Source of the DNA: Costus lasius | Taxonomy: Eukaryota; Streptophyta; Magnoliopsida; Zingiberales; Costaceae | Assembly (NCBI GenBank): GCA_027563935.2 | Contig: CM050454.1 | Span: forward strand, 49,938,596 to 50,002,595 | DNA: 64,000 nucleotides | Direction: 5' to 3' | Shown: piece after piece, positions 2,051 to 47,744 of the stretch | Layout of the letters: each line of letters starts with the position of its first letter | Position numbering within the stretch: the stretch's first letter is position 1 | The notes under the pieces: generated by a model | What the model saw: only the letters and a program-made list of their open reading frames with translations | Database searches by the model: none | Told to the model about the DNA's origin: nothing | Made by a program: the position numbers and the translations under genes

Positions 2051-3882
2051 TGTTGGTGAATATGCCATAGGACCTAATATTGGTCCATTATTGTACTACT
2101 TAACATTGATATTTATATATCATTTTGGCATTGTCGTTATCATCATTTGTTTAAATCTGTAAATGTGTACTTATGGGATAATGTCCCTAGAGACAGATTG
2201 GATCTGTGCTCAAACTTTTTGTCCCCAGTCAAGTACCTTAGTAGATATGGCACAGCTATGGTATATGAGAGACTGGTATATGGGCTAGTTAGGTATGAAA
2301 TGCTAACGCAAACATATGGGTATATCAGTGGTAGATATACTAGATCGACCCACTGTGAGGCAATGACTTGGTGTCATGAGTTATCCTCACAAGTGACAGG
2401 AGATGTGTTGATCCCTAGACTTAAGGTCATTGACTCTTCTATGTGGTTAGGGACATGCTTTGATACAACCTAACATCTCGCCGTAGTTGGGAGGTCATAA
2501 CGGTTGTCATTGAGTATGTCACGACCCATATGAGAAGATCAATTGACAGATAGAGGATTCGCCCCTTCCAGAGGGAAGCAACGATGCACTGCTAGGTATG
2601 GCCATGCCCAGGTGAGAACCTGATTTCGTCATAACCAAGTGATTGGATTAAAACAAGTGGTGACACACTTGTCCAATTGGATATCAGTTTGGCAAAGGGA
2701 CTAAAATACATTAGTGCCTAGTTGCGATGATAGGGATGTCGATGTAAATATCTATTCCGATGACTTTGGTAGCAACGATGCACTGCTAGGTGCCACTCAC
2801 TGCTTGTGGTGACCTTAGGTCAGCACTGCCAATGTCAAAGGAACCTATAAGGTTGCACACCTTGATGCTCGAGTTTTCGTATTGATCGGATAGCCTTTGG
2901 ATCGAGTTATTTGCTAATTCATATCTATTTGGGAGATTCATCAGCGCCAATGGGCCTAATGAGATGGAAGAAACTTATTAAGGCCAACTTCCATTTTGGC
3001 ATATTAACCAAATTAACCATGGTTAACCTCGTTTGACCTTGGGTTAAATTGGATTGGATCTAATGGGTTGATTAACATACATAATGGACCTTGGGCTAGG
3101 CCCATTATATAGTTGGGCTTACTGATAAGTTATTTGAGCTTAAGGAGAAGAAAAGGCAAGCACATATTTAACCCTAGTTAGACTAGGGTTAGCGCATATG
3201 CCTTAATTAATATCATGTGATTAATTAAAGTTGATTTTGAATTAATCATTTGAGATAAAATAGGGGCTAATTAATTAATTAATTAGAGTCCTATTTTTGT
3301 GAAGATTTAATAGGGCTGATTTTATTTAAATTAATTAGAGTCCTAATTTGATTAGGATTTAATTAATTAATTCCTAAAATCATGCTTTCTTAATTCTTCT
3401 CCAAGCCACACATGACCTCTATTAAAGAGACCCTAGCCCGGCCCTCTGATGGCACTAATTCCTCTTGCAGGCGTGGAGACAAGTGGAGGGGCGAAAGCTT
3501 GGAGTTCTTAGAGATTTTCTCCTGTTCTTCCATCAAGACTAAAGAGTTCTTCCTCTTCTTCCCTTGGCGCTTCCCCACCTTGGTGATTGGCGCAAGTGTT
3601 CAAGAGGAACTCCCTTGGTGTGGATCTTCTTCCCGAGGCTAGCACCTGGCGTAGAAGAAGAAGACTCGAAGCATCCGTGTGTGTGAGATTGCAGAGGGCA
3701 CACACTTGGGCGCCTACATCGACATCGTCTCAAATTGCTTCAAGGTACCTTCTCATCTCATCGTGTCGACTCCCTCACATAACGATCTTCACTGGGTTTT
3801 TGGGACTGGCCTGTTTTGGGGGTCTTTCTTCCGCTGTGCTTTCTATGAAAATCTTTTAAAATATCCCCAGGGTTTCCCAACA
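2051..3882 (+). repeat. Element E 3' LTR (1832 bp)
   Basis: It starts TGTTGGTGAA directly after the purine-rich AGTGGGAGAT and ends CCCAACA, where gypsy element D resumes. The stretch around 2780-2860 aligns by eye with the same part of the other copia LTRs (TGCTAG, CTCACTG, TCAAAGGAA and GCACA landmarks) although the rest is diverged. It contains hairpins TGACC-TTA-GGTCA (2810-2822) and AACCT-ATA-AGGTT (2842-2854) at positions matching hairpins of the other families. The stretch 3150-3390 is AT-rich with repeated TTAATTAA-like words. I see no gene in it. Confidence 0.85.
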
Positions 3883-4390: not shown

Positions 4391-5745
4391 TGAAAGTCCC
4401 CTACCACGAGGGGGCGAAACCCTAATAGGCGCATGCAGAGGTTTTAACACAGCGGAAAAGGTTTCTAGATCGATGCATGCAGTATGATCAACTTTAAAAT
4501 TTTGTATACATGAGAATCGATCCTTACCGATGCCATTTCTTGGATGGCGTCTAGGAAGTAGAGAGTCAAACGCTTCTCCTCCAAATGGTGCACACACAAG
4601 GTGATCAATGCGCCTACTCCCTTAGTGCTCCTTGTGCTAGCAAGGTTCCAAGGTCTCCTGATCGAATGGAAGGGAAGGAGATGTTTTTCTTCTTGGCCGA
4701 ATCCTCTCCAAAGCGTCAAGGCGACACACAACGAGTGAACCTCTAGAGAGAGGGGCGAGAGGCGAGAATAAAACTTCTCTTGGCGTGAACGTGAGGCGTG
4801 GCCTCATGGCTTCTAAAAATAGCAAACCACCAACGTTCATGCGACCATGGGTTTACCCGAACGCATTTTGCTCTCCCCTTGAACCATGCGCTCACATGAT
4901 GAGCTGGTTCAATTTCGGTTTGGTTCAAAGACCAATTAAGCCAAGCATCTGGTTTAGATCACAATAAACCCTAAAGGTTCAAGATCCAACCGTTCATCTC
5001 TTGATGCTCTTGATCTCACTGATCTAGCATCAATTCTCTCGATCGAAGCTTACCGATCTCATGCCCTAATCAATCAAACATGATCAGACCAGATCTCACT
5101 TACAATCAGAGATTAAATCCCTTTAAACTGAACCAGAACAATTCAGTCCACATGATCTGACTTAAGTAAGCCATATCATCAAATTGTGCGACCCTAAGGG
5201 TTTCCTTTAAATGTCGGTAATGATAACTTACGTTATCACGATCAGTGAGGTGTATCTAGCAACACATCACTGTCTCCCGATATAAAGGAAAGAGTCTTCC
5301 AAGACTACACCCAAACCACAGCACAAGTGTGAACCCAACTCACTAGGCATATGTGTTTCCTTTGCCACTGGACGTTCTTATTGGACAAGCGTGTCAAGCC
5401 TGTAATTCCAATATGATGAGAATGATTAGATCAGATGATCATAGTCATCTGGGTATGGCCATACACTTTCTCAATCATCTCATCCAGGGGGCCCCTATAG
5501 AACATCACACTCCAATCAAGGAGACGGCAATCCTATATCTATCACTAGTGCCCTAACATGACTCATGCTCATTATCCAAGATAATCTATAACCATTATGT
5601 TTCAAATGATATCGAACTACCTCAAAACAATGTCAATCATCATTTAGAAACACAAGTGATCTCAAGTCAGAGGAAATATGCCACTTGTTTGCATATAAGG
5701 ATTATTCACATTGTGACAAGCAATTGAATATCCTAAGTAGGGTCT

Positions 5746-5750
5746 GTCCA
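5746..5750. repeat. Target-site duplication of element A (GTCCA), left copy
   Basis: GTCCA occurs at 5746-5750 and again at 14806-14810, flanking element A exactly. The uninterrupted site is present in B's other LTR as GGGTCTGTCCAGTACATCC near 22191-22209, a direct empty-site comparison. Confidence 0.97.
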
Positions 5751-7429
5751 TGTTGGGGTATGCCCTTAAGGCTAATGTTTGAGGCCTGTGGGAATGTATC
5801 TGTATCATGTAATAAACTGTTATGTTTATAAAGGCATGGTTATTATTCAGTTGTTTACATTGTCTGCTGCAATATATGTTCTTCTGAATAATGTCTCAAA
5901 GCTGTTCAGCTGGGCTGACATGCTGTTATGTCCTTAGTCGATATATCTTGGTGAACATGAGACAGCCTTGATATGGTTAAGACTAATATGTGTTCTAATC
6001 TTATAGGATGCTTCGAGCATGGAATAAGATGTAGACTCATGGGTACATTGGATGTGCTGGACAGACCCTACTAGGTTATTCAATTGTTTGTCACAATGTG
6101 AATATTCCTTGAATATGACAAGTGGCACATTTCCTCTGACTTGAGATCACTTGTGTTTTCTAAATGATGATTGTCATTGTTTTGAGATAGTTCAATATCA
6201 TTTGAAACATAATGATTATAGACTATCTTGGATGGTGAGCTTGAATCAGGTTAGGGCACTAGTGATAGACATAGGATTGCCGTCTCCTTGTTCAAGGAGT
6301 GTGATGTTCTAAAGGGGCCCCCTGGATGAGATGATTGAGAAAAGAGTATGGCCATACCCAGGTGACAGTGTTCATCTGATCTAATCATGCTCATCATATT
6401 GGAGCTACAAGCTTGACACGCTTGTCCAATAAGAACATCCAGTGGCAAAGGAAATATGCATGCCTTGTGAATTGATTCACACTTGTGCTATGGTTTGGGT
6501 GTAGTCTTGGAAGACTCTTTCCTTTATATCGGGAGACAGTGATGTGTTGCTAGATACCCCTCACTGATCGTGATAATGTGAATTATCGTTACCGACATTT
6601 AAAGGAAACCCTTAGGGTCGCACAATTTGATGATATGGCTTACTTCAGTCAGATCGTGTGGACTGAATTGTTTGGGTTCAGTTTAAAGGGATTTAATCTC
6701 TGATTGTAAGTGAGATCTAGTCTGATCATGTTTGATTGATTAGGGCTTGAGATCGGTAAGCTTCGATCGAGAGAATGATTGCTAGATCGGGCAGATCAGA
6801 AGCATCAAGAGATTAACGGTCAGATCTGGAGCCTTAGGGTTTATTTGAGATCTAGACTAGATCATTGGCTTGATTGGTTCTTAAACCGAACCAATGTGAA
6901 CCGGCTCATGAAATGAGCGCATGGTTCAAGGCTTGGCGACTTGTTCACTTGGCGTGAACATTGGAGCGAGTGGTGTGGCTATTTTTAGTAACCACGATCT
7001 CCACTTGGAGATAACGCTCACGTTCGAATAGCTCTTGCTATTCTCGCCTCTCAAGCGACCTCTCTCTCGACACTCATTGTGTGTGGCGACGCTTGGAAGA
7101 TAGAGGAGGTTTTTGGCCAAAAGAGATAAACACATCTCCATCCCTTTTCACTCGATCAAGGACTCCAAGGAACCTTGCTAGCACAAGGAGCACCAAGGGT
7201 AGGCGCATTGATCATCTTGTGTGTGAAACTTAGGAGAAGGCTCGCTTGCGTCTTTCCTTCCAAAGCTTCATCAAACCGATGGCAATGGTATGAGTTTATC
7301 TTCATCTATTCAAATATTCGAAAGCTAGTTATATGACATATATAGATCCTTTGAAATCCTAATATCCCATGCAAAATTTTTGTTGCGCCACCATTAGGGT
7401 TTCTACCCCTTAGTTAGGGGTTCCCTTCA
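5751..7429 (+). repeat. Element A 5' LTR (1679 bp)
   Basis: It begins TGTTGGGGTATGCCCTTAAG and ends GGGGTTCCCTTCA, with TG...CA ends. The start resembles the barley BARE-1 LTR start (from memory TGTTGGAAATATGCCC). It carries a palindrome AGTCTTGGAAGACT (6503-6516), a TATA-like CCTTTATATC (6521-6530), the GNRA hairpin (6572-6587) and a second short hairpin (6608-6618). Confidence 0.95.
6503..6618 (+). promoter_or_regulatory. Element A LTR: inferred core promoter and start-proximal hairpins
   Basis: A 14-bp palindrome AGTCTTGGAAGACT is followed by the TATA-like CCTTTATATC at 6521. A start site 25-35 bp downstream would fall near 6550. The transcript would then begin shortly before GATAAT-GTGA-ATTATC (6572-6587), a 6-bp stem with a GNRA loop, and ACCC-TTA-GGGT (6608-6618). 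The same order occurs in every BARE-like LTR of the window; TATA-like boxes are at 13897, 5279-5288(-), 21729-21738(-), 29091-29100(-), 36540-36549(-), 43989-43998(-), 53789-53798(-) and 58235-58244. The promoter call is inference; the repeats and hairpins are read directly. Confidence 0.55.
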
Positions 7430-13126: not shown

Positions 13127-14805
13127 TGTTGGGGTATGCCCTTAAGGCTAATGTTTGAGGCCTGTGGGAATGTATCTGTATCATGTAATAAACTGTTATG
13201 TTTATAAAGGCATGGTTATTATTCAGTTATTTACATTGTCTGCTGCAATATATGTTCTTCTGAATAATGTCTCAAAGCTGTTCAGCTGGGCTGACATGCT
13301 GTTATGTCCTTAGTCGATATATCTTGGTGAACATGAGACAGCCTTGATATGGTTAAGACTAATATGTGTTCTAATCTTATAGGATGCTTCGAGCATGGAA
13401 TAAGATGTAGACTCATGGGTACATTGGATGTGCTGGACAGACCCTACTAGGTTATTCAATTGTTTGTCACAATGTGAATATTCCTTGAATATGACAAGTG
13501 GCACATTTCCTCTGACTTGAGATCACTTGTGTTTTCTAAATGATGATTGTCATTGTTTTGAGATAGTTCAATATCATTTGAAACATAATGATTATAGACT
13601 ATCTTGGATGGTGAGCTTGAATCAGGTTAGGGCACTAGTGATAGACATAGGATTGCCGTCTCCTTGTTCAAGGAGTGTGATGTTCTAAAGGGGCCCCCTG
13701 GATGAGATGATTGAGAAAAGAGTATGGCCATACCCAGGTGATAGTGTTCATCTGATCTAATCATGCTCATCATATTGGAGCTACAAGCTTGACACGCTTG
13801 TCCAATAAGAACATCCAGTGGCAAAGGAAATATGCATGCCTTGTGAATTGATTCACACTTGTGCTATGGTTTGGGTGTAGTCTTTGAAGACTCTTTCCTT
13901 TATATCGGGAGACAGTGATGTGTTGCTAGATACCCCTCACTGATCGTGATAATGTGAATTATCGTTACCGACATTTAAAGGAAACCCTTAGGGTCGCACA
14001 ATTTGATGATATGGCTTACTTCAGTCAAATCGTGTGGACTAAATTGTTTGGGTTCAGTTTAAAGGGATTTAATCTCTGATTGTAAGTGAGATCTAGTCTG
14101 ATCATGTTTGATTGATTAGGGCTTGAGATCGGTAAGCTTCGATCGAGAGAATGATTGCTAGATCGGGCAGATCAGAAGCATCAAGAGATTAACGGTCAGA
14201 TCTGGAGCCTTAGGGTTTATTTGAGATCTAGACTAGATCATTGGCTTGATTGGTTCTTAAACCGAACCAATGTGAACCGGCTCATGAAATGAGCGCATGG
14301 TTCAAGGCTTGGCGACTTGTTCACTTGGCGTGAACATTGGAGCGAGTGGTGTGGCTATTTTTAGTAACCACGATCTCCACTTGGAGATAACGCTCACGTT
14401 CGAATAGCTCTTGCTATTCTCGCCTCTCAAGCGACCTCTCTCTCGACACTCGTTGTGTGTGGCGACGCTTGGAAGATAGAGGAGGTTTTTGGCCAAAAGA
14501 GATAAACACATCTCCATCCCTTTTCACTCGATCAAGGACTCCAAGGAACCTTGCTAGCACAAGGAGCACCAAGGGTAGGCGCATTGATCATCTTGTGTGT
14601 GAAACTTAGGAGAAGGCTCGCTTGCGTCTTTCCTTCCAAAGCTTCGTCAAACCGATGGCAATGGTATTAGTTTATCTTCATCTATTCAAATATTCGAAAG
14701 CTAGTTATATGACATATATAGATCCTTTGAAATCCTAATATCCCATGCAAAATTTTTGTTGCGCCACCATTAGGGTTTCTACCCCTTAGTTAGGGGTTCC
14801 CTTCA
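13127..14805 (+). repeat. Element A 3' LTR (1679 bp)
   Basis: Same length as the 5' LTR. Differences by eye include GTGACAG/GTGATAG, AGTCTTGG/AGTCTTTG and CTCATTG/CTCGTTG, about 8 in all. The GNRA hairpin is at 13948-13963. It is followed by TSD GTCCA and then the rest of B's 3' LTR. Confidence 0.95.
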
Positions 14806-15135
14806 GTCCAGTACATCCAATGTACCCATGAGTCTACATCTTATTCCATGCTCGAAGCATCCTATAAGATTAGAACACATATTAGTCTTAATCATATCAA
14901 GGCTGTCTCATGTTCACCAAGATATCTCGACTAAGGACAAAACTGCATGTCAGCCAAGCTGAACAGCATTGAGACATTATTCAGAAGTATACATATTGCA
15001 GCAGATGATGTAACAACCTGAATAACAACCATTGCCTTTATAAACGTAGAGTTTAAACATGATACTAAAATAATCCCAAGGCTTCAAACATTAGCCTTAA
15101 GGGCATACCCCAACAATCTCCCACTTGCACTTAAT

Positions 15136-20840: not shown

Positions 20841-22505
20841 TGAAAGTCCCCTACCACGAGGGGGCGAAACCCTAATAGGCGCATGCAGAGGTTTTAACAC
20901 AGCGGAAAAGGTTTCTAGATCGATGCATGCAGTATGATCAACTTTAAAATTTTGTATACATGAGAATCGATCCTTACCGATGCCATTTCTTGGATGGCGT
21001 CTAGGAAGTAGAGAGTCAAACGCTTCTCCTCCAAATGGTGCGCACACAAGGTGATCAATGCGCCAACTCCCTTAGTGCTCCTTGTGCTAGCAAGGTTCCA
21101 AGGTCTCCTGATCGAATGGAAGGGAAGGAGATGTTTTTCTTCTTGGCCGAATCCTCTCCAAAGCGTCAAGGCGACACACAACGAGTGAACCTCTAGAGAG
21201 AGGGGCGAGAGGCGAGAATAAAACTTCTCTTGGCGTGAACGTGAGGCGTGGCCTCATGGCTTCTAAAAATAGCAAACCACCAACGTTCATGCGACCATGG
21301 GTTTACCCGAACGCATTTTGCTCTCCCCTTGAACCATGCGCTCACATGATGAGCTGGTTCAATTTCGGTTTGGTTCAAAGACCAATTAAGCCAAGCATCT
21401 GGTTCAGATCACAATAAACCCTAAAGGTTCAAGATCCAACTGTTCATCTCTTGATGCTCTTGATCTCACCGATCTAGCATCAATTCTCTCGATCGAAGCT
21501 TACCGATCTCAAGCCCTAATCAATCAAACATGATCAGACCAGATCTCACTTACAATCAGAGATTAAATCCCTTTAAACTGAATCAGAACAATTCAGTCCA
21601 CACGATCTGACTTAAGTAAGCCATATCATCAAATTGTGCGACCCTAAGGGTTTCCTTTAAATGTCGGTAATGATAACTTACGTTATCACGATCAGTGAGG
21701 GGTATCTAGCAACACATCACTGTCTCCCGATATAAAGGAAAGAGTCTTCCAAGACTACACCCAAACCACAGCACAAGTGTGAACCCAACTCACTAGGCAT
21801 ATGTGTTTCCTTTGCCACTGGACGTTCTTATTGGACAAGCGTGTCAAGCCTGTAATTCCAATATGATGAGAATGATTAGATCAGATGATCATAGTCATCT
21901 GGGTATGGCCATACACTTTCTCAATCATCTCATCCAGGGGGCCCCTATAGAACATCACACTCCAATCAAGGAGACGGCAATCCTATATCTATCACTAGTG
22001 CCCTAACATGACTCATGCTCATTATCCAAGATAATCTATAACCATTATATTTCAAATGATATCGAACTACCTCAAAACAATGCCAATAATCATTTAGAAA
22101 CACAAGTGATCTCAAGTCAGAGGAAATATGCCACTTGTTTGCATATAAGGATTATTCACATTGTGACAAGCAATTGAATATCCTAAGTAGGGTCTGTCCA
22201 GTACATCCAATGTACCCATGAGTCTACATCTTATTCCATGCTCGAAGCATCCTATAAGATTAGAACACATATTAGTCTTAATCATATCAAGGCTGTCTCA
22301 TGTTCACCAAGATATCTCGACTAAGGACAAAACTGCATGTCAGCCAAGCTGAACAGCATTGAGACATTATTCAGAAGTATACATATTGCAGCAGATGATG
22401 TAACAACCTGAATAACAACCATTGCCTTTATAAACGTAGAGTTTAAACATGATACTGAAATAATCCCAAGGCTTCAAACATTAGCCTTAAGGGCATACCC
22501 CAACA
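20841..22505 (-). repeat. Element B 5' LTR (1665 bp)
   Basis: On the minus strand it begins TGTTGGGGTATGCCC at 22505 and ends at 20841. The TATA-like box is at 21729-21738 and the GNRA hairpin at 21672-21687. It is followed on the right by TSD CTACC and gypsy D sequence. It preserves the empty site for element A. Confidence 0.94.
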
Positions 22506-28177: not shown

Positions 28178-29871
28178 TGAAGGAAACCCTAAACATTAGG
28201 GGTTGAAACCCTAAACATGCGCATCTAGCATGCATAGCGGAAAAAGGGCTTCAAGTAGATCGCATATGAACTATATAATCAACATGAAGCTATGAGTTGA
28301 GATCTATACCATAGCCATAAGGTTGGAGGTCGGCTTGGAAGAAGAGAGCAAACTTGATCTCCTCCGAAAGTTCACACACAAAGGTGATGAAGACTCCTCA
28401 CTTGCGCACCTCTTGTGCTAGCAAGAATGCCAAGATGTCTTTGATCGAGTATAGGAAAGAGATGAAGACTTCTTTGCTTGGCCGATCCTTTCTCCAAGAT
28501 GTCGTCTCCTTCACCAATGTCTCGTCACGAGAGCAAGCGAAGGCCGAGAGTGAATGGAGCGTTCACTTGTCATTTGCGTTCAAGGAGACATGCGCTTATG
28601 ACTTTCCAAATTAGGAAAAACATTAAGCCATGCGTTCAAGATCTCTAAACCGATCTTAAACTCCACAAAACGCCTTAAACAATGAACCATGCGTTCAAGC
28701 CCTTGAACCGGTTCAAAGCAAATGTGTTTGGACCAAAAGCCAAACCAAACCGGCCCAAGCCAAATCGGTCTAGATCAACCAAACCCTAAGGTTTCCAATC
28801 TAACCGTTCATCTCATGATGCTCTTGATCTCACCGATCTAGCATCATCTCTCTCGATCGAAGCTTACCGATCTCAAGCCCTAATCAATCAAACATGATCA
28901 GACCAGATCTCACTTACAATCAGAGATTAAATCCCTTTAAACTGAACCGAAACAATTCAGTCCACACGATCTGACTTAAGCAAGCCATATCACCAAATTG
29001 TGCGACCCTAAGGGTTTCCTTTAAATGTCGGTAACGATAACTTTCGTTATCACGACCAGTGAGGGGTATCTAGCAACACATCACTGTCTCCCGATATAAA
29101 GGAAAAAGTCTTCCAAGACTACACCCAAACCATGGCACAAGTGTGACTCAATTCACAAGGCATACATGTGTCCTTTGCCACTGGATGTTCTTATTGGACA
29201 AGCGGGTCAAGCTTGTAACTCCAATACGATGAGCATGATTAGATCAGATGCACATAGTCATCTGGGTATGGCCATACACTTCCTCAATCATCTCATATAA
29301 GGGGGGCCCTTTAGAACATCACACTCCTTGAACAAGGAGACGGCAATCCTTTATCTATCACTAGTGCCCTAACCTGATTCAAGCTCACCATCCAAGATAG
29401 TCTATAATCATTATGTTTCAAATGATATTGAACTATCTCAAGACAATGACAATCATCATTCAGAAACACAAGTGATCTCAAGTCAGAGGACATGTGCCAC
29501 TTGCTGCATACAAGGATCATTCACATTGTGACAAGCAATGGAATATCCCAGTAGGGTCTGTCCAGTACATCCAATGTACCCATGAGTCTACATCTTATTC
29601 CATGCTCGAAGCATCCTATAAGATTAGCACTCATATCAGTCTCAATCATATCAAGGCTGTCTCATGTTCACCAAGATATCTCGACTAAGGACTTATAGCC
29701 TGTCAGCCTAGCTGAACAGCTTTGAGACATTATTCAGAAGTACACTTATTACAGCAGACAAGGTAACAACCTGAATAATAACCATGCCTTTTATAAACAT
29801 AAGAGTTTATTACATGATACTTTTACAATCCCAAAGGCCTCAAACATTAGCCTTAAGGGCATACCCCAACA
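28178..29871 (-). repeat. Dimer LTR a (1694 bp), left end
   Basis: On the minus strand it begins TGTTGGGGTATGCCC at 29871 and ends at 28178. It is the 3' LTR of unit 1. The GNRA hairpin (GATAAC-GAAA-GTTATC on the minus strand) is at 29036-29051 and the TATA-like box at 29091-29100. Confidence 0.95.
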
Positions 29872-29891
29872 ATCTCCCACTTGCACTTAAT

Positions 29892-32800
29892 CTAATGGTT
29901 GAGAAATCTCAAACCCATATTATTACAGTGCTTCTCATGCTTCTGCTGCGCCAGAGGCTTGGTAAGTGGGTCTGCCAGATTGTCATCTGTATGAACCTTG
30001 CATATTTTGATCTCGCCACGATCAATGATCTCCCGGATCAAGTGAAACCGTCTCTGTATGTGCTTGGACTTCTGGTGCGACCGCGGTTCCTTTGCTTGTG
30101 CGATGGCTCCAGTGTTATCACAGAAGATAACCAAAGGATCTGCACTCGAAGGAACGACACCAAGTTCTCTCACGAACTTACGAATCCACACTGCCTCCTT
30201 AGATGCTTCCGAGGCTGCAACATACTCGGCTTCTGTTGTGGAATCAGCAACAGTTGACTGTTTGAAACTCTTCCACACCACTGCTCCACCATTCAAGCTA
30301 AAAACATAGCCTGATTGCGATCGGAAATCATCCTGGTCCGACTGGAACGAAGCGTCAGTATATCCCTCTATACTGAGTTCTTCCTGACCACCATATATCA
30401 AGAACATATCTTTGGTCCTCCGCAGATATTTTAAAATGTTCTTGACCGCAATCCAGTGCGCCAAACCTGGATTACTTTGGAATCGACTGGTTACGCTTAA
30501 CCCGTAAGCGACGTCTGGGCGAGTACATAACATCGCATACATAATGGACCCAATAGCCGAAGCATAAGGCGTATTGTCCATTTCATCTTTCTCAGTCTGT
30601 GTTTGTGGACACTGACTCTTTGAAAGATTCAGACCATGTCTGACTGGAAGATATCCACGTTTAGAATTCTCTAAATGGAATCTCTCCAGGACTTTATCGA
30701 TGTAAGTACTCTGGCACAGCCCGAGAAGCCTCTTAGATCTATCCCGGTAGATCTTCACACCTAGTACATAGGCTGCTTCTCCTAAATCTTTCATCTGGAA
30801 ACATTTTCCTAACCATGCCTTAACAGCATGCAGTTCAGGAATATCATTTCCAATGATTAAGATATCATCGACGTAGAGGATTAGGAATGTAATTACGCTC
30901 CCACTAAACCTCTTATATACACACGGGTCATCCTCGTTCTTGATGAAACCAAACTCAGAGATTGATTCATCAAAACGAATGTTCCAGCTTCTTGATGCTT
31001 GTTTCAGTCCATAAATGGACTTCTTTAACTTGCATATTTTATGACGATCTGCTGGATTAGTGAAACCTTCCGGTTGTGTCATATACACATCCTCATCCAG
31101 ATTTCCATTAAGGAAAGCTGTTTTCACATCCATCTGCCAGATCTCATAATCGTAATATGCTGCTATCGCGAAAAGAATCCGAATAGACTTAAACATGGCT
31201 ACAGGAGAGAAAGTTTCATCATAATCTAACCCGTAGATTTGTTTGAAACCTTTCGCTACTAGCCTGCCTTTATAGGTAACCACGTTACCATCCATGTCAA
31301 TCTTCTTCTTGAAGATCCATTTACAGCCTATAGGGATTACTCCCGGAGGCGGATCAACCAAATCCCAGACCTGGTTATCTGACATGGAGTCCATTTCGGC
31401 TCGCATAGCTTCAAGCCATCTAGCTGACTCCGGTCCACTGACCGCATCCGCATAAGTGAGGGGTTCATCATTATCAATGATGTAGACTCCGTCATAGCGC
31501 TCAGGCTGACGACGGATCCTACCCGATCTTCGCGGTTCCCGTGATATTTGAGCCTCAGGTTGCTCAATAACCTGATCTACCGGCTCAGGCTCATCCAACT
31601 GTGCTTGACTACTTTGTCCTTCCTCTGGATTCTCATCCAGCTTTATTTCTCTCCCACTGGCCTCTTGCAGAAGAAACTCCTTCTCAAGAAATATGGCCGT
31701 CCGAGCAACAAAAACCTTGTTCTCTTTGGGATCGTAGAAATAATAACCCTTAGTTTCCTTAGGGTAACCGACAAAGATACATTTCTCAGATCTGCTCTCT
31801 AGTTTCCCAGAGGCGAGCTTTTTGACATAAGCCTCGCAACCCCAGATCCTGATAAATGTCAAGCTAGGCTGTTTCCCATACCATAACTCATATGGCGTCT
31901 TTAAAACTGCCTTGGATGGCACTCGGTTTAGTACCTTTGCAGCTGTTTCCAGTGCAAAACCCCAAAAGGAGTATGGAAGAGTAGCCTGACTCATCATAGA
32001 ACGAACCATATCAAGCAACGTTCTATTTCTCCTCTCGGACACACCATTCCACTGCGGTGTTCCTGGCGGAGTGAGCTGTGAGATAATCCCACACTCCTTC
32101 AGATAGTCAGTAAACGCATGACTCAGGTATTCACCACCTCGATCAGAACGAAGTGCCTTGATATTTCGGCCTAGCTGATTCTGTACTTCATTTTTGAACT
32201 CTTTGAACTTGTCAAAAGATTCACTTTTATGTCTTATTAAATAGACATATCCATACCTACTGAAATCATCAGTAAAGGTAATGAAGTACTGATAGCCACC
32301 TCTGGCATGTTTACTAAAAGGCCCACACACATCACTGTGTATAAGGTCAAGTAAACCTGAAGTCCTCTGACCTTTGTGAAGAAAAGGAGACTTCGTCATT
32401 TTACCCATCAAACAAGCTTTGCATGTATCAATCTCCTCATAGGAGAATGATCCCAGCAGTCCATGTTCATGCAACCGCTTAATGCGCTTCTCGTTTATAT
32501 GGCCTAAACGACTATGCCATAACAAGGTGCTGTCATCAGCATATTTGGCTTTCTTATTATCAATGTTTTGTATAGAATTTTCCATGTCCAACATGTATAA
32601 CCCATTGTTAATTGAACCAGTTGCATACACAATATTATCATGAGATAAAACACACTTTGAAATCTTGCATTCAAAGGCAAATCCTTTCCTGACAAGAGCA
32701 GGAATAGAGATAATATTCTTTGTGATACTCGGTACAAAATAACAATTGTTCAATTCTAATACAATGCCAGATGGTAAAGAAATGAAATAGTCTCCTACAG

Positions 32801-33776
32801 CAACAGCAGCAACCCGTGCCCCGTTTCCAACTCGTAGGTCTACCTCATGCTGTCCCACCTGCCTTCTTCTCTTGAGTTCCTGTACATTTGAACAAATGTG
32901 AACTCCACATGCAGTGTCCAACACCCATGAAATAGTAGAAGAAGATAACATGACCTCAGTCACATATATACCTGAGCCAGAAGCGATGCTTCCCCTCTTA
33001 TCTCCTTGGAGCGCTTTACAGTCCTTTTTCCAGTGACCCAGCTGGCCACAGTGGAAACACCTGTTATCCTTCGACCGCTTCACCTTCTGTTTCAGGGCCT
33101 TGCTGTAATTCTTGACAGGGGCCTTGCCCTTCTTCCCCTTCTTCTTGTTCCTAAAAGGAACCATTAAGACAGAGGTTGAAGGCTTACCCTTCAGAGTTTC
33201 CTCAGTTGTCAAGAGCATATTCAGCAACTCTGCCGGCGTACAATCGATTTTGTTCATATTAAAGTTAATGATGAACGCATCGAAAGAAGGCGGAAGAGAC
33301 TGCAGAATAATATCTACAGCAAGCTCCTGGTTGATGGTATGCCCCAGTTTCTCCAGAGCCTCCTTGTGCCCAATCATCTTGAGCACGTGAGCTCCCACTG
33401 GGCTCCCCTCAACCAGTTTGCTCTGAAAGAAGAGCTTTGTCAGATTATAGCGTTCTGTCCTCGCCTGTGCAGCATACAGCATCTTGAGGTTCGCTATAAT
33501 TTCTATAGCCGACATATCCTCATGCTGACGCTGCAGCGGTGGCGTCATAGACGCTAGCATCAGGCAAGCGACATCAATGCTATCATTGACGTGCTTTTCG
33601 TAGGCATCCCGAACCGCCCTTGCGGCGTTCGGAGCGGGCTGCGGCGGTATCGCCGTCTCGAGGACATACAGTTTCCTCTCTGCCTTAAGAACGATCTTAA
33701 GGTGTCCAAACCAGTCAGAGAAGTTCGGCCCAGCAAACTTCTCCCTTTCCAGTAGGGATCGCACATTGAAGCTCAT
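29892..33776 (-). CDS. gag-pol: Gag-pol polyprotein, dimer unit 1 (intact, 1294 aa)
   Basis: One uninterrupted frame from the ATG at 33776 to the stop after LRFLNH. Domain order: gag with zinc knuckle CFHCGQLGHWKKDC (about residues 240-253); protease with LDTACG; integrase with HSRLGH/CKAC zinc residues and D-D-E core (HSDVCGPF, RSDRGGEY, SERRNR); RT with WQMDVKTAFLNG and YVDDIL; RNase H with GYTDASFQSD, STTEAEY and FCDNTGA, and a C-terminal RSHQKSKHIQRRFHL. Order and motifs match BARE/Angela copia. The start agrees with A and H (CACCATG). Unlike unit 2 it has Val instead of Ala in the gag segment SKLxEGSP, through A at 33412 on the + strand. Nothing in the frame prevents function. Confidence 0.95.
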   Translation of the reverse strand: MSFNVRSLLEREKFAGPNFSDWFGHLKIVLKAERKLYVLETAIPPQPAPNAARAVRDAYEKHVNDSIDVACLMLASMTPPLQRQHEDMSAIEIIANLKMLYAAQARTERYNLTKLFFQSKLVEGSPVGAHVLKMIGHKEALEKLGHTINQELAVDIILQSLPPSFDAFIINFNMNKIDCTPAELLNMLLTTEETLKGKPSTSVLMVPFRNKKKGKKGKAPVKNYSKALKQKVKRSKDNRCFHCGQLGHWKKDCKALQGDKRGSIASGSGIYVTEVMLSSSTISWVLDTACGVHICSNVQELKRRRQVGQHEVDLRVGNGARVAAVAVGDYFISLPSGIVLELNNCYFVPSITKNIISIPALVRKGFAFECKISKCVLSHDNIVYATGSINNGLYMLDMENSIQNIDNKKAKYADDSTLLWHSRLGHINEKRIKRLHEHGLLGSFSYEEIDTCKACLMGKMTKSPFLHKGQRTSGLLDLIHSDVCGPFSKHARGGYQYFITFTDDFSRYGYVYLIRHKSESFDKFKEFKNEVQNQLGRNIKALRSDRGGEYLSHAFTDYLKECGIISQLTPPGTPQWNGVSERRNRTLLDMVRSMMSQATLPYSFWGFALETAAKVLNRVPSKAVLKTPYELWYGKQPSLTFIRIWGCEAYVKKLASGKLESRSEKCIFVGYPKETKGYYFYDPKENKVFVARTAIFLEKEFLLQEASGREIKLDENPEEGQSSQAQLDEPEPVDQVIEQPEAQISREPRRSGRIRRQPERYDGVYIIDNDEPLTYADAVSGPESARWLEAMRAEMDSMSDNQVWDLVDPPPGVIPIGCKWIFKKKIDMDGNVVTYKGRLVAKGFKQIYGLDYDETFSPVAMFKSIRILFAIAAYYDYEIWQMDVKTAFLNGNLDEDVYMTQPEGFTNPADRHKICKLKKSIYGLKQASRSWNIRFDESISEFGFIKNEDDPCVYKRFSGSVITFLILYVDDILIIGNDIPELHAVKAWLGKCFQMKDLGEAAYVLGVKIYRDRSKRLLGLCQSTYIDKVLERFHLENSKRGYLPVRHGLNLSKSQCPQTQTEKDEMDNTPYASAIGSIMYAMLCTRPDVAYGLSVTSRFQSNPGLAHWIAVKNILKYLRRTKDMFLIYGGQEELSIEGYTDASFQSDQDDFRSQSGYVFSLNGGAVVWKSFKQSTVADSTTEAEYVAASEASKEAVWIRKFVRELGVVPSSADPLVIFCDNTGAIAQAKEPRSHQKSKHIQRRFHLIREIIDRGEIKICKVHTDDNLADPLTKPLAQQKHEKHCNNMGLRFLNH

Positions 33777-35626
33777 GGTGTTCGTTGCTGCAGGAATCTA
33801 CAACAAGCAAGAACATCAAGGTCAGTATCAATGTTTCAGAATCAATCCAGGACTTAAGAAAGATTCTTTTCCCACTATTTTGTCTGACTGAAAAATCCAG
33901 TAAACAGTCCGAAAGAGTAACACTCTTTTAGTGAGATGGGATCCAGATTTCATACTTGGTCTCCGCGTCCCGCTCAGGCGAGATAAGATGCACAGAGATG
34001 ACAAGCACTAGTTTCTGGTAGGCTGTCCCAGCCAATCGCCAACCCGTGCGATTCCCCTTCATCTTGGCAATCCAGCAGACTGTGCCAACTGAGTTGGTAC
34101 AACACAGTCTCTGATCCCAGAGATGGCTGCCTCCATGTGCTACCATATGCGCCACATATGTAGCCTACATGGTCAAGCTTACCCGACCTACTCCCTGGAC
34201 CACCACGTGCTATGCTGAGCAACGAGAGGGGATAAATCCCAACTCTGTAACACGCAGGTGAAATCCAGCACCGTCTGAAGATAGATGGACGTGCCCACTG
34301 AGTGGGTTCAACACGGCTCCAACGATAGTCAGAAAGGTGAGGTTTCGCGTCAGAAGGCTTACGAGCTTGATATTTCAGCGTTGGATTTTAACGGTCTTTT
34401 ATCTTCTTACTATCAGGCATGTCCTATGGCTATAGCAGAAGATAAACATAAATATGCAATTCTAATTATTAGCAATAAGTAGAAAGCATGATCTTATGTG
34501 GTAAAAGCCCATGAACCCTAGTAAGACCTTAAGATTACTTAAGTCTTCACTTGAGCTTCATTGCATCTCATCTGGTCCAACCCAGTGCCCTAGCGCCAAG
34601 AGCACCTCAGGTGCACCACCAGGTGAATGCCCCTCTTGGATGTGTGCCTTTGTTCTTGTCTAATCAAAGTACATTTGATCTATCTAGACAAGGTTGACTC
34701 GCAGGTCAACAACATATTATAAATTAAGTACAATGTGATTCGCAGATCACAAATTAATTTACAATTTTTAAGTCCAGGCACGCAGGCCCCAGCACAGCAC
34801 ACAATTGGGCAACCCACACAAGACTAAATAAACAAGCATATGGTTCAATCAACATGTGATCCAATCATCTTGAAATTAAAAGTTTTGAAAACCCCATGGC
34901 ATCAATTTTAATTTCCTTATGAGCCCTACAACCTTACAATGGTCCATTGATGGGGATCCACTCATCCATCTAGTTAGATCCTTTGCCCTTGCATGCACCG
35001 AGTCCTAACTGACCCGAGTTGACCTAATGGTCAACCATGCATGCGCCAAGGGCTGAACTACCCCCATGAGTTTTGGCAAGCGGGTGTGACCCCGGGCCTA
35101 ACTCAAGTGTGTTCAGTAGTGTCTCAACCAGACCTCGCTACACGCCCTAGATGCAGTCAACCTATAGCCACCTTGTGCTTGCGCATAGGTGCTATCAGGT
35201 TAACCCATCTGAGCTGTCAGATGGTCTGATCAGACTTGGATCTAACCTAGTGGTGACTTCAACCCCATCAACCCATCTAAGGGTTTAATGTAGTGGCACC
35301 TTAGATCTAATCAAGCGCACAAGATGTAAGTTTTAGAAAAACCTTAGAACATGCGCTAACATCAAACAAAGTTGATAACCCTTAGATCTAAGGGGGTCCC
35401 CTTCTAGGGGGAGCGCAAACTTGAGGGGGTCCCCTTCAAGGGGGAGCGCATACATAGCCCATGATACAAGCGCAAGCTGCATGTTAGCATGATACAAGCG
35501 CAATCTACAAGTACATGTAACCATGCATCATGAAAGCAAAGCATCAAGTAAGCGCAACAAGCATGGATCACATAACACTTCTAGCAATCATATAGATCAT
35601 ATGGAGAGCCTTGCTCTGATACCAAT
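33777..35626 (-). other. Dimer unit 1 leader and primer-binding site
   Basis: The primer site GCTCTGATACCA is at 35613-35624 (perfect TGGTATCAGAGC on the minus strand). The bulged hairpins lie at 34079-34108 and 34290-34315. Near 35390-35452 a ~31-bp G/C-rich word (GGGGGTCCCCTTC, GGGGGAGCGCA) is present twice. The tRNA-like module of A, B and F is absent at the equivalent place (about 34560-34680). No gene seen. Confidence 0.8.
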
Positions 35627-37320
35627 TGAAGGAAACCCTAAACATTAGGGGTTGAAACCCTAAACATGCGCATCTAGCATGCATAGCGGAAAAAGGGCTT
35701 CAAGTAGATCGCATATGAACTATATAATCAACATGAAGCTATGAGTTGAGATCTATACCATAGCCATAAGGTTGGAGGTCGGCTTGGAAGAAGAGAGCAA
35801 ACTTGATCTCCTCCGAAAGTTCACACACAAAGGTGATGAAGACTCCTCACTTGCGCACCTCTTGTGCTAGCAAGAATGCCAAGATGTCTTTGATCGAGTA
35901 TAGGAAAGAGATGAAGACTTCTTTGCTTGGCCGATCCTTTCTCCAAGATGTCGTCTCCTTCACCAATGTCTCGTCACGAGAGCAAGCGAAGGCCGAGAGT
36001 GAATGGAGCGTTCACTTGTCATTTGCGTTCAAGGAGACATGCGCTTATGACTTTCCAAATTAGGAAAAACATTAAGCCATGCGTTCAAGATCTCTAAACC
36101 GATCTTAAACTCCACAAAACGCCTTAAACAATGAACCATGCGTTCAAGCCCTTGAACCGGTTCAAAGCAAATGTGTTTGGACCAAAAGCCAAACCAAACC
36201 GGCCCAAGCCAAATCGGTCTAGATCAACCAAACCCTAAGGTTTCCAATCTAACCGTTCATCTCATGATGCTCTTGATCTCACCGATCTAGCATCATCTCT
36301 CTCGATCGAAGCTTACCGATCTCAAGCCCTAATCAATCAAACATGATCAGACCAGATCTCACTTACAATCAGAGATTAAATCCCTTTAAACTGAACCGAA
36401 ACAATTCAGTCCACACGATCTGACTTAAGCAAGCCATATCACCAAATTGTGCGACCCTAAGGGTTTCCTTTAAATGTCGGTAACGATAACTTTCGTTATC
36501 ACGACCAGTGAGGGGTATCTAGCAACACATCACTGTCTCCCGATATAAAGGAAAAAGTCTTCCAAGACTACACCCAAACCATGGCACAAGTGTGACTCAA
36601 TTCACAAGGCATACATGTGTCCTTTGCCACTGGATGTTCTTATTGGACAAGCGGGTCAAGCTTGTAACTCCAATACGATGAGCATGATTAGATCAGATGC
36701 ACATAGTCATCTGGGTATGGCCATACACTTCCTCAATCATCTCATATAAGGGGGGCCCTTTAGAACATCACACTCCTTGAACAAGGAGACGGCAATCCTT
36801 TATCTATCACTAGTGCCCTAACCTGATTCAAGCTCACCATCCAAGATAGTCTATAATCATTATGTTTCAAATGATATTGAACTATCTCAAGACAATGACA
36901 ATCATCATTCAGAAACACAAGTGATCTCAAGTCAGAGGACATGTGCCACTTGCTGCATACAAGGATCATTCACATTGTGACAAGCAATGGAATATCCCAG
37001 TAGGGTCTGTCCAGTACATCCAATGTACCCATGAGTCTACATCTTATTCCATGCTCGAAGCATCCTATAAGATTAGCACTCATATCAGTCTCAATCATAT
37101 CAAGGCTGTCTCATGTTCACCAAGATATCTCGACTAAGGACTTATAGCCTGTCAGCCTAGCTGAACAGCTTTGAGACATTATTCAGAAGTACACTTATTA
37201 CAGCAGACAAGGTAACAACCTGAATAATAACCATGCCTTTTATAAACATAAGAGTTTATTACATGATACTTTTACAATCCCAAAGGCCTCAAACATTAGC
37301 CTTAAGGGCATACCCCAACA
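35627..37320 (-). repeat. Dimer LTR b (1694 bp), shared middle LTR
   Basis: It serves both as 5' LTR of unit 1 and as 3' LTR of unit 2. It has no flanking TSD: its left neighbour is unit 1's primer site and its right neighbour unit 2's polypurine tract. GNRA hairpin at 36485-36500. Confidence 0.95.
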
Positions 37321-37340
37321 ATCTCCCACTTGCACTTAAT

Positions 37341-40300
37341 CTAATGGTTGAGAAATCTCAAACCCATATTATTACAGTGCTTCTCATGCTTCTGCTGCGC
37401 CAGAGGCTTGGTAAGTGGGTCTGCCAGATTGTCATCTGTATGAACCTTGCATATTTTGATTTCGCCACGATCAATGATCTCCCGGATCAAGTGAAATCGT
37501 CTCTGTATGTGCTTGGACTTCTGGTGCGACCGCGGTTCCTTTGCTTGTGCGATGGCTCCAGTGTTATCACAGAAGATAACCAAAGGATCTGCACTCGAAG
37601 GAACGACACCAAATTCTCTCACGAACTTACGAATCCACACTGCCTCCTTAGATGCTTCCGAGGCTGCAACATACTCGGCTTCTGTTGTGGAATCAGCAAC
37701 AGTTGACTGTTTGAAACTCTTCCACACCACTGCTCCACCATTCAAGCTAAAAACATAGCCTGATTGCGATCGGAAATCATCCTGGTCCGACTGGAACGAA
37801 GCGTCAGTATATCCCTCTATACTGAGTTCTTCCTGACCACCATATATCAAGAACATATCTTTGGTCCTCCGCAGATATTTTAAAATGTTCTTGACCGCAA
37901 TCCAGTGCGCCAAACCTGGATTACTTTGGAATCGACTGGTTACGCTTAACCCGTAAGCGACGTCTGGGCGAGTACATAACATCGCATACATAATGGACCC
38001 AATAGCCGAAGCATAAGGCGTATTGTCCATTTCATCTTTCTCAGTCTGTGTTTGTGGACACTGACTCTTTGAAAGATTCAGACCATGTCTGACTGGAAGA
38101 TATCCACGTTTAGAATTCTCTAAATGGAATCTCTCCAGGACTTTATCGATGTAAGTACTCTGGCACAGCCCGAGAAGCCTCTTAGATCTATCCCGGTAGA
38201 TCTTCACACCTAGTACATAGGCTGCTTCTCCTAAATCTTTCATCTGGAAACATTTTCCTAACCATGCCTTAACAGCATGCAGTTCAGGAATATCATTTCC
38301 AATGATTAAGATATCATCGACGTAGAGGATTAGGAATGTAATTACGCTCCCACTAAACCTCTTATATACACACGGGTCATCCTCGTTCTTGATGAAACCA
38401 AACTCAGAGATTGATTCATCAAAACGAATGTTCCAGCTTCTTGATGCTTGTTTCAGTCCATAAATGGACTTCTTTAACTTGCATATTTTATGACGATCTG
38501 CTGGATTAGTGAAACCTTCCGGTTGTGTCATATACACATCCTCATCCAGATTTCCATTAAGGAAAGCTGTTTTCACATCCATCTGCCAGATCTCATAATC
38601 GTAATATGCTGCTATCGCGAAAAGAATCCGAATAAACTTAAACATGGCTACAGGAGAGAAAGTTTCATCATAATCTAACCCGTAGATTTGTTTGAAACCT
38701 TTCGCTACTAGCCTGCCTTTATAGGTAACCACGTTACCATCCATGTCAATCTTCTTCTTGAAGATCCATTTACAGCCTATAGGGATTACTCCCGGAGGCG
38801 GATCAACCAAATCCCAGACCTGGTTATCTGACATGGAGTCCATTTCGGCTCGCATAGCTTCAAGCCATCTAGCTGACTCCGGTCCACTGACCGCATCCGC
38901 ATAAGTGAGGGGTTCATCATTATCAATGATGTAGACTCCGTCATAGCGCTCAGGCTGACGACGGATCCTACCCGATCTTCGCGGTTCCCGTGATATTTGA
39001 GCCTCAGGTTGCTCAATAACCTGATCTACCGGCTCAGGCTCATCCAACTGTGCTTGACTACTTTGTCCTTCCTCTGGATTCTCATCCAGCTTTATTTCTC
39101 TCCCACTGGCCTCTTGCAGAAGAAACTCCTTCTCAAGAAATATGGCCGTCCGAGCAACAAAAACCTTGTTCTCTTTGGGATCGTAGAAATAATAACCCTT
39201 AGTTTCCTTAGGGTAACCGACAAAGATACATTTCTCAGATCTGCTCTCTAGTTTCCCAGAGGCGAGCTTTTTGACATAAGCCTCGCAACCCCAGATCCTG
39301 ATAAATGTCAAGCTAGGCTGTTTCCCATACCATAACTCATATGGCGTCTTTAAAACTGCCTTGGATGGCACTCGGTTTAGTACCTTTGCAGCTGTTTCCA
39401 GTGCAAAACCCCAAAAGGAGTATGGAAGAGTAGCCTGACTCATCATAGAACGAACCATATCAAGCAACGTTCTATTTCTCCTCTCGGACACACCATTCCA
39501 CTGCGGTGTTCCTGGCGGAGTGAGCTGTGAGATAATCCCACACTCCTTCAGATAGTCAGTAAACGCATGACTCAGGTATTCACCACCTCGATCAGAACGA
39601 AGTGCCTTGATATTTCGGCCTAGCTGATTCTGTACTTCATTTTTGAACTCTTTGAACTTGTCAAAAGATTCACTTTTATGTCTTATTAAATAGACATATC
39701 CATACCTACTGAAATCATCAGTAAAGGTAATGAAGTACTGATAGCCACCTCTGGCATGTTTACTAAAAGGCCCACACACATCACTGTGTATAAGGTCAAG
39801 TAAACCTGAAGTCCTCTGACCTTTGTGAAGAAAAGGAGACTTCGTCATTTTACCCATCAAACAAGCTTTGCATGTATCAATCTCCTCATAGGAGAATGAT
39901 CCCAGCAGTCCATGTTCATGCAACCGCTTAATGCGCTTCTCGTTTATATGGCCTAAACGACTATGCCATAACAAGGTGCTGTCATCAGCATATTTGGCTT
40001 TCTTATTATCAATGTTTTGTATAGAATTTTCCATGTCCAACATGTATAACCCATTGTTAATTGAACCAGTTGCATACACAATATTATCATGAGATAAAAC
40101 ACACTTTGAAATCTTGCATTCAAAGGCAAATCCTTTCCTGACAAGAGCAGGAATAGAGATAATATTCTTTGTGATACTCGGTACAAAATAACAATTGTTC
40201 AATTCTAATACAATGCCAGATGGTAAAGAAATGAAATAGTCTCCTACAGCAACAGCAGCAACCCGTGCCCCGTTTCCAACTCGTAGGTCTACCTCATGCT

Positions 40301-41225
40301 GTCCCACCTGCCTTCTTCTCTTGAGTTCCTGTACATTTGAACAAATGTGAACTCCACATGCAGTGTCCAACACCCATGAAATAGTAGAAGAAGATAACAT
40401 GACCTCAGTCACATATATACCTGAGCCAGAAGCGATGCTTCCCCTCTTATCTCCTTGGAGCGCTTTACAGTCCTTTTTCCAGTGACCCAGCTGGCCACAG
40501 TGGAAACACCTGTTATCCTTCGACCGCTTCACCTTCTGTTTCAGGGCCTTGCTGTAATTCTTGACAGGGGCCTTGCCCTTCTTCCCCTTCTTCTTGTTCC
40601 TAAAAGGAACCATTAAGACAGAGGTTGAAGGCTTACCCTTCAGAGTTTCCTCAGTTGTCAAGAGCATATTCAGCAACTCTGCCGGCGTACAATCGATTTT
40701 GTTCATATTAAAGTTAATGATGAACGCATCGAAAGAAGGCGGAAGAGACTGCAGAATAATATCTACAGCAAGCTCCTGGTTGATGGTATGCCCCAGTTTC
40801 TCCAGAGCCTCCTTGTGCCCAATCATCTTGAGCACGTGAGCTCCCACTGGGCTCCCCTCAGCCAGTTTGCTCTGAAAGAAGAGCTTTGTCAGATTATAGC
40901 GTTCTGTCCTCGCCTGTGCAGCATACAGCATCTTGAGGTTCGCTATAATTTCTATAGCCGACATATCCTCATGCTGACGCTGCAGCGGTGGCGTCATAGA
41001 CGCTAGCATCAGGCAAGCGACATCAATGCTATCATTGACGTGCTTTTCGTAGGCATCCCGAACCGCCCTTGCGGCGTTCGGAGCGGGCTGCGGCGGTATC
41101 GCCGTCTCGAGGACATACAGTTTCCTCTCTGCCTTAAGAACGATCTTAAGGTGTCCAAACCAGTCAGAGAAGTTCGGCCCAGCAAACTTCTCCCTTTCCA
41201 GTAGGGATCGCACATTGAAGCTCAT
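37341..41225 (-). CDS. gag-pol: Gag-pol polyprotein, dimer unit 2 (intact, 1294 aa)
   Basis: Same protein as unit 1 with all domains intact: gag zinc knuckle, protease LDTACG, integrase D-D-E, RT YVDDIL, RNase H STTEAEY. It differs at three residues that I can see: Ala instead of Val in gag SKLxEGSP, Phe instead of Ser in the RT segment AMFKxIRIL (+ strand A at 38635), and Phe instead of Leu in the RNase H segment VRExGVV (+ strand A at 37613). The Phe in the RT segment replaces a Ser present in A, B and H and may matter; the other two look mild. Confidence 0.95.
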   Translation of the reverse strand: MSFNVRSLLEREKFAGPNFSDWFGHLKIVLKAERKLYVLETAIPPQPAPNAARAVRDAYEKHVNDSIDVACLMLASMTPPLQRQHEDMSAIEIIANLKMLYAAQARTERYNLTKLFFQSKLAEGSPVGAHVLKMIGHKEALEKLGHTINQELAVDIILQSLPPSFDAFIINFNMNKIDCTPAELLNMLLTTEETLKGKPSTSVLMVPFRNKKKGKKGKAPVKNYSKALKQKVKRSKDNRCFHCGQLGHWKKDCKALQGDKRGSIASGSGIYVTEVMLSSSTISWVLDTACGVHICSNVQELKRRRQVGQHEVDLRVGNGARVAAVAVGDYFISLPSGIVLELNNCYFVPSITKNIISIPALVRKGFAFECKISKCVLSHDNIVYATGSINNGLYMLDMENSIQNIDNKKAKYADDSTLLWHSRLGHINEKRIKRLHEHGLLGSFSYEEIDTCKACLMGKMTKSPFLHKGQRTSGLLDLIHSDVCGPFSKHARGGYQYFITFTDDFSRYGYVYLIRHKSESFDKFKEFKNEVQNQLGRNIKALRSDRGGEYLSHAFTDYLKECGIISQLTPPGTPQWNGVSERRNRTLLDMVRSMMSQATLPYSFWGFALETAAKVLNRVPSKAVLKTPYELWYGKQPSLTFIRIWGCEAYVKKLASGKLESRSEKCIFVGYPKETKGYYFYDPKENKVFVARTAIFLEKEFLLQEASGREIKLDENPEEGQSSQAQLDEPEPVDQVIEQPEAQISREPRRSGRIRRQPERYDGVYIIDNDEPLTYADAVSGPESARWLEAMRAEMDSMSDNQVWDLVDPPPGVIPIGCKWIFKKKIDMDGNVVTYKGRLVAKGFKQIYGLDYDETFSPVAMFKFIRILFAIAAYYDYEIWQMDVKTAFLNGNLDEDVYMTQPEGFTNPADRHKICKLKKSIYGLKQASRSWNIRFDESISEFGFIKNEDDPCVYKRFSGSVITFLILYVDDILIIGNDIPELHAVKAWLGKCFQMKDLGEAAYVLGVKIYRDRSKRLLGLCQSTYIDKVLERFHLENSKRGYLPVRHGLNLSKSQCPQTQTEKDEMDNTPYASAIGSIMYAMLCTRPDVAYGLSVTSRFQSNPGLAHWIAVKNILKYLRRTKDMFLIYGGQEELSIEGYTDASFQSDQDDFRSQSGYVFSLNGGAVVWKSFKQSTVADSTTEAEYVAASEASKEAVWIRKFVREFGVVPSSADPLVIFCDNTGAIAQAKEPRSHQKSKHIQRRFHLIREIIDRGEIKICKVHTDDNLADPLTKPLAQQKHEKHCNNMGLRFLNH

Positions 41226-46867: not shown

Positions 46868-47744
46868 ATGCCTACAGCATTCACTAAAGCGGATGGGGGG
46901 TTTTGCGATACCAAATACCCTAATTGACAGGTGTCAGATAGATGACCTTCTACTCTACAAACTTCACACATAGCTGAGTTAGAAGTAGTAGGACGCATGT
47001 TCATAGAGTCAAGCTTATGAGATAATGAATCTACTTTTGTAGCGAGAGAACTAAGAGCGTCGAGTTCATACTTACCTGCTTGCCGTGATGAAGTACCTCT
47101 CTCGCTCGATCACTGAAGTGATTGAGCGCCATTTCTTCGATTAGATTGTAGGCATCATTGACTCCTTTGTTCATCAAAGCTCCTCTGGCAGTTGCATCAA
47201 CGGTAAGATGAGTGTTATAAAGCAAACCGTTATAAAAAGTGTGTACCAATACCCGTTTCTCGAGGCAGTGGTGAGGGCACATTCGTTGCAATTCCTTGAA
47301 GTGATCCCACGCTTCATAATGATTCACCATCCTTTTGAGAAAAATTTTGGTAATCTGGTTTCTTAATTGCGCGGTTTTGCTCGGAGGAAAATATTTTCTA
47401 AGGAAGGCATGTGAGAGTTGTTCCCATGTGGTAATGGATCCGGACGGTAAAGAATGTAACCAAGCTCGCACCCTATCTCTAAATGAAAATGGTAAAAGTT
47501 GAAGTCGCAGAGCGTCAGTAGTCACACCATTCATTTTAAGAGTGTCACAATATTTAAGAAAAATAGATAAATGCATATTCGGATCCTTAGTAGGGGATGC
47601 ACCAAATTGGTTTTGCTGTAACATCGACAGAAGCAATGGTTTTATCTCAAAGTTATTCGCCTCTATCTGTGGACATGCAATTCTAGAATGAAATCCTTTG
47701 ACATTTGGTGCTGCAAAGTCTCGAAGCGACTTGTTAGCCTCCAT
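46868..47744 (-). pseudogene. gag: Element D gag, N-terminal and zinc-knuckle part
   Basis: From ATG 47744 a 237-codon frame begins MEANKSLRDFAAP and contains the gypsy capsid landmarks QQNQFGASPTKDP, FSFRDRVRAWLHSLP, TTWEQLSHAFLRKYFPP and QRMCPHHCLEKRVLVHTFYNGL. Near 47075 the frame shifts by one base. The other frame continues YELDALSSLATKVDSLSHKLD and then the knuckle CEVCRVEGHLSDTC (CX2CX4HX4C, about 46929-46970). It ends where C is inserted; the next codons are at 22568. It forms the viral-like particle core in intact relatives; this copy is broken. Confidence 0.88.

Follow-up and report, generated by a model that had tools for sequence, protein, structure and literature searches.

HIV-1 TAR and the poly(A) hairpin are retroviral R/U5 leader hairpins. 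The hairpin described here is like them in being an LTR-encoded structured RNA of the sense strand kept by compensatory and G.U changes, the likeness being drawn at the level of structure type. For Ty1, likewise a copia-type LTR element, the genomic RNA is reported to contain structured elements that act in cis in dimerization and cyclization (PMC9503155); the structure here is instead found midway along a plant LTR of 1.7 kb, and the two are compared by description. Passages on barley BARE describe a two-promoter LTR, an uncapped, packaged RNA pool separate from the capped, translated pool, and RNA ends, encoded in the LTR, that determine whether an RNA is packaged; the same passages contain no mention of a hairpin or stem-loop (PMC3735527). 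BARE is likewise a plant Ty1/copia element with a long LTR (likened here by description), and by analogy an LTR structure marking the genomic RNA would fit its two RNA pools. Structured RNA within a plant retroelement LTR is also described for retrozymes, which have hammerhead ribozymes in the LTR (PMC4918200). Here we analyse a hairpin in the LTRs of a 64,000-nucleotide stretch of Costus lasius DNA (contig CM050454.1; the window).

A hairpin shared by the LTRs of the window

A search of the window with the pattern GATRAYGNRARTTATC, allowing at most one mismatch, gave nine matches, each with 0 mismatches, while shuffled controls gave a mean of 0.10 matches and none of 100 shuffles reached nine. 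These are the nine hairpins that a sequence-only reading of this DNA had listed, and every one lies exactly where it had been placed. The hairpin under study (P4 below; 6572..6587, plus strand; followed by pattern search, genome counts and tree) is in the 5' LTR of element A (5751..7429, plus strand), and its copy at 13948-13963 (plus) is in the 3' LTR of the same element (13127-14805). LTR H carries another on the plus strand (58286-58301), and the minus-strand copies are found in LTR B (5222-5237 and 21672-21687), the dimer LTRs (29036-29051, 36485-36500 and 43934-43949) and LTR F (53731-53746). The nine hairpins all belong to copies of a single LTR element, with LTR matches 83-100% identical, and hence do not count as independent; the hairpin is found at 819-822 within the LTR.

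A single polyprotein ORF between dimer LTR copies (29892-33776, minus strand) encodes Retrotran_gag_2, zf-CCHC, gag_pre-integrs and rve, then RVT_2, i.e. integrase before reverse transcriptase, the domain order of Ty1/copia elements. 'BARE-like' is the label of the sequence-only reading, and we keep it as putative, its basis here being this domain order.

Among 40 stems listed in a scan for stems kept in all rows of five LTRs, the hairpin (8 bp, including two terminal wobbles) has the most varying pairs (four). One stem is longer: 11 bp at about LTR 914, formed by TGGACTGAATT and GGTTCAGTTTA (6659..6685, plus strand; also in the predicted fold), about 75 nt 3' of the hairpin in the main LTRs. 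The 16-column block of the hairpin has five variable columns and is not unique in this, as three others among 22 blocks also have five. Its short-fold stability is ordinary, with z scores against shuffles of -0.6 (A), -1.6 (H) and down to -3.3 (B). The first two thirds of the window LTRs (columns 1 to about 1050) share about 90% identity between families, and the last third diverges sharply (about 50% in columns 1076-1750).

Genome-wide substitution counts

Counts were taken in the window's own genome, which comprises 269 contigs and 1.279 Gb. In it the H/B form of the hairpin has 29,505 exact copies, and 44,241 places are found when the flanks are fixed and the hairpin is left free. No broken stem occurs among 100 listed places of the latter search; the wobble-keeping variants C6>T, A4>G, A4'>G and C6'>T occur there, as does the compensated combination of T6 with A1'.

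The near-palindromic stem allows a matched test: every stem A has a dyad-equivalent T with identical neighbours. Neutral drift or a dimer-bound DNA palindrome would give A>G and T>C at 1:1, whereas for an RNA hairpin A>G leaves a G.U pair (pair kept) and T>C leaves A.C (pair lost). With flanks fixed and loop free, 43,545 places have unchanged A/T stem sites, 49,764 are found when A>G is allowed and 43,899 when T>C is allowed, that is, 6,219 extra copies for stem A>G against 354 for context-matched T>C (17.6 to 1, in counts of copies that are not independent and that are dominated by amplified subfamilies). The direction of the excess names the element's sense strand as the folded strand. Among the A>G-allowed matches listed, the same A>G is common to both members of five LTR pairs 7.4 kb apart, and because of this sharing the stem A>G changes are taken to be transmitted. 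Across whole LTRs (42 LTR pieces), shared A>G and T>C changes stand at 81 to 53 (1.86-fold per base) and singletons at 36 to 40 (1.09-fold per base). Given the LTR-wide shared bias, a neutral ratio of precisely 1:1 may not hold; the stem ratio exceeds that bias about ninefold.

At the innermost pair, the compensated U-A form is found at 3,896 places genome-wide and the broken C.A form at 46, so that G1'>A is hardly ever seen outside the T6 background (with the caveat that C6>T is a CpG transition). Counted by eye among 100 listed unchanged-site places, this pair is C-G in 84, U.G in 11, U-A in five and C.A in none. A broken stem can be transmitted, since 16 of the 46 C.A places form eight LTR pairs with a spacing of about 7.4 kb.

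On a FastTree tree of the 42 LTR pieces, built with the domain masked, the stem changes are A4>G (three times), A4'>G (three), C6>T (two) and G1'>A (one); all nine keep pairing, in a sample where eight of the 40 loci behind the pieces (L003-L010) had been chosen by the exact hairpin. The six A>G changes alone are not significant under the LTR-wide bias of 1.86. In 49 distinct main pieces (out of 87) all 294 P4 cells are paired, and four of the six pairs vary. The sequence-only reading had claimed compensatory and G.U changes in the stem and had proposed a covariation check. The matched test, the innermost-pair counts and the tree bear the changes out, and the covariation question, asked within this genome, is answered by an excess of pair-keeping over matched pair-breaking changes in P4 of the main copies. 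The pattern of change in P4 is thus strand-specific, wobble-tolerant and compensatory by these counts.

A predicted larger fold around the hairpin

Folding of 201-nt pieces makes the hairpin one arm (P4) of a multibranch domain of ~90 nt, and it is probably one arm of such a larger fold. In element A (plus strand throughout) the predicted closing helix P1 pairs TTCCTTTA (6519..6526), which overlaps the TATA-like box, with TAAAGGAA (6600..6607). Predicted P2 pairs TCGG (6529..6532) with CCGA (6592..6595) and covaries in the E-like LTRs described below. P3 (6535..6569) would pair GACAGTGA (6535-6542) with TCACTG (6561-6566) and TC (6568-6569), and its predicted apical stem consists of GTGTT (6544-6548), the loop GCTA (6549-6552) and GATAC (6553-6557). 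When the 49 distinct main pieces are folded to minimum energy, 48 of them contain P4 and 46 contain the apical stem. Support for P1 in the main copies is mixed: some cells of P1 to P3 are broken, most of them in P1, and in one LTR pair (L003 and L004) P1 is CCTTCA with TGAAGG, a double change that by eye needs a one-base shift.

The sequence-only reading had placed a TATA-like box about 50 nt before the hairpin, and TTTATATC does lie there in the five main-family window LTRs examined, at about LTR 773. It also forms the 5' side of the predicted closing helix (P1/P2), is altered in one piece (L035) and has no counterpart at the aligned position in element E. For these three reasons a transcription start near 6550, with the hairpin in R, is unproven, and the promoter argument of that reading is not supported in the form in which it was made.

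A predicted counterpart domain in E-like LTRs

The LTR of element E (TGTTGG...CCAACA; 2053..3882, plus strand) belongs to a distant family. The stem-loop TGACC-TTA-GGTCA noted earlier is present at 2810-2822, and across a G.G mismatch its stem is lengthened by GTG (2806-2808) opposite CAC (2824-2826). The surrounding sequence (2755..2843, plus strand) is predicted to fold like the main LTR domain with other letters, as indicated by the fold itself and by covariation in E-like pieces. The predicted helices are TTCC (2755-2758) with GGAA (2840-2843), TGAC (2761-2764) with GTCA (2834-2837) and TTGG (2766-2769) with CCAA (2829-2832); the apical stem is GCACT (2780-2784), GCTA, GGTGC (2789-2793), and P4 spans 2806-2826. 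The P3 apical sequence, GCAACGATGCACTGCTAGGT, is repeated in E about 195 nt 5' of the domain (2578-2597).

An E-like query, TGCTAGGTVCCNCTCACTG, has 10,494 places in the genome, and 60 of 100 listed places, together with E of the window, were taken as 61 E-like pieces. In 40 of these the predicted fold combines apical P3 and P4 with a closing helix; in the other 21 it does not, in the frame used. For covariation, 52 distinct pieces were used (L051, whose left half is foreign, was dropped): 95.4% of cells pair (shuffle maximum 95.0%) and there are 23 double-change cells (shuffle maximum 15). One P2 pair is T-A in 32 pieces, C-G in 18, T.G in one and C.A in one. Four pairs have a double change, a number that 71 out of 500 shuffles reach. 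No pair-keeping excess was found in the E-like LTRs, the ratio of keeping to breaking being 12:17 for shared and 8:16 for private changes. P4 occurs in at least three stems in these pieces (UGACC/GGUCA, GUGAUGA/UCAUCAC and AGACC/GGUCU).

The main and E-like domains were also compared directly, L007 against L065, over 19 homologous pairs hand-chosen after folding. Out of the 19, 18 pair in E, with 10 substitutions and four double changes; in a transitions-only permutation the four doubles have p 0.002, while the 18 paired positions alone are not significant (p 0.09). The P3 apical stem shows two double changes and one single change between the main and E forms, with pairing kept. The shared P1-P3 architecture is a prediction with limited covariation behind it. 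Many of the pieces L041-L100 also have strong hairpins, GATCGAGTTAT..ATAACTCgGATC and TTTCATCAG..CTGATGAGAT, about 120-190 nt after TGCTAGG.

The loops had been put forward as conserved GNRA tetraloops, and here the evidence goes the other way. Among 100 listed main copies 94 loops are GNRA and six are outside it (ACAA one, ATAA two, GTTA three), and none of the predicted loops in the 61 E-like pieces is GNRA. The ATAA and GTTA loops are transmitted, as they are present in LTR pairs 7.4 kb apart. The listed U-A copies have GTGA, GAGA and GTAA loops. The GNRA tetraloop is not general to the hairpin.

Interpretation

We consider that the hairpin does form in the sense transcript of this plant Ty1/copia LTR family, which is very abundant, that it is selected at the RNA stage and that it is most likely one arm of the ~90-nt domain (probability about 0.8). 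Selection would maintain the sense-strand fold during the RNA phase of the element, and P4 would be an arm of a multibranch domain in mid-LTR that related LTR families keep with different letters. Whether the inverted repeat could instead act as DNA, its GATAA / TTATC half sites being bound by a protein dimer in the LTR promoter, was weighed against the same counts. In favour of this are the shortness and near-palindromic form of the repeat, the TATA-like box upstream of it and the compensatory C-G to T-A change, which preserves the dyad too; but the halves bound by a dimer are equivalent by dyad, so that A>G should equal T>C where 6,219 against 354 were found, and in E-like LTRs a hairpin is retained although its letters differ, which makes a DNA site very improbable. 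It is improbable, if less strikingly so, that the hairpin has no function and is a chance feature of a conserved LTR stretch, its counts produced by a few amplified subfamilies and strand-biased mutation at the RNA or reverse-transcription stage. The weak short-fold z scores of A and H, the LTR-wide shared A>G bias of 1.86, the relatedness of the copies and the roughly 90% identity of LTR columns 1 to about 1050 as a whole all fit such an origin. Against it stand the roughly ninefold excess of 17.6 to 1 over that bias, the near limitation of G1'>A to the T6 background (3,896 vs 46), the pair-keeping nature of nine out of nine independent stem changes, and the hairpins with other letters at the same place in E-like LTRs.

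The proposal of the sequence-only reading, a cap-proximal or 3'-terminal hairpin in R serving strand transfer, 3' end formation or translation, was weighed as well. If TTTATATC at LTR 773, the sole TATA-like match listed for LTR H, is a TATA box, the start would be near LTR 800-810 and P4 would lie in R; the uncapped, non-polyadenylated RNA pool of BARE, in the passages cited, carries R and is packaged (PMC3735527). But TTTATATC falls within the predicted closing helix, with the alteration in L035 and the absence in E noted above, and a start directed by it would split the larger fold at its 5' end, and we regard the proposal as unlikely. Returning to the selected sense-strand structure, the whole domain would be expected to form in the cell, and, with much less certainty, it may act in cis on the genomic RNA and signal packaging, dimerization or replication. 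A transcription start upstream of the domain would place it near the RNA 5' end; a start downstream would leave it present only via the 3' LTR, near the 3' end.

A wider reading, which we hold as doubtful, is that the LTR centre encodes an old structured RNA domain for packaging, dimerization or definition of the genomic-RNA ends, kept across letter-divergent LTR families and made up of the multibranch fold with an invariant-looking GCUA apical loop, whose CUAG core is self-complementary, and then strong hairpins. If true, no other structured RNA element of the Costus lasius genome would be as abundant. LTR retrotransposons make up much of plant genomes, yet the RNA signals by which their transcripts are sorted into translation or packaging are poorly known. 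With tens of thousands of copies to count within a single genome, a structure of this kind becomes testable, which would allow such signals to be discovered without activity assays. The dyad-matched comparison of A>G with its T>C counterpart distinguishes RNA structure from a palindrome acting as DNA, names the strand, and could be extended to the stems of any high-copy repeat.

Database searches and other features of the window

No description of the hairpin in plant copia LTRs came up among the papers listed by literature searches. Searches of viral contigs, by DNA pattern and by a 245-aa reverse transcriptase piece, found no relatives, and among other genome contigs two bacterial ones matched, with flanks that lack the hairpin; thus no relatives outside this genome were found in the viral and genome contigs searched. 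The domain has no Rfam match with E up to 5, hammerhead included, and a hammerhead ribozyme reading was dropped for want of such a match.

At the gathering threshold, the only Rfam matches in the whole window are two to snoR71 (RF00097), at 55125-55231 (minus strand) and 47263-47361 (plus strand), away from the hairpin; the stretches around them are mutual repeats (68%). Element A is inserted in an LTR of element B (4391-5750 and 14803-15115). Three near-identical LTRs and two internal regions stand in tandem at 28178-44769, with 99.9% identity over 9.1 kb, an arrangement that resembles the outcome of unequal recombination.
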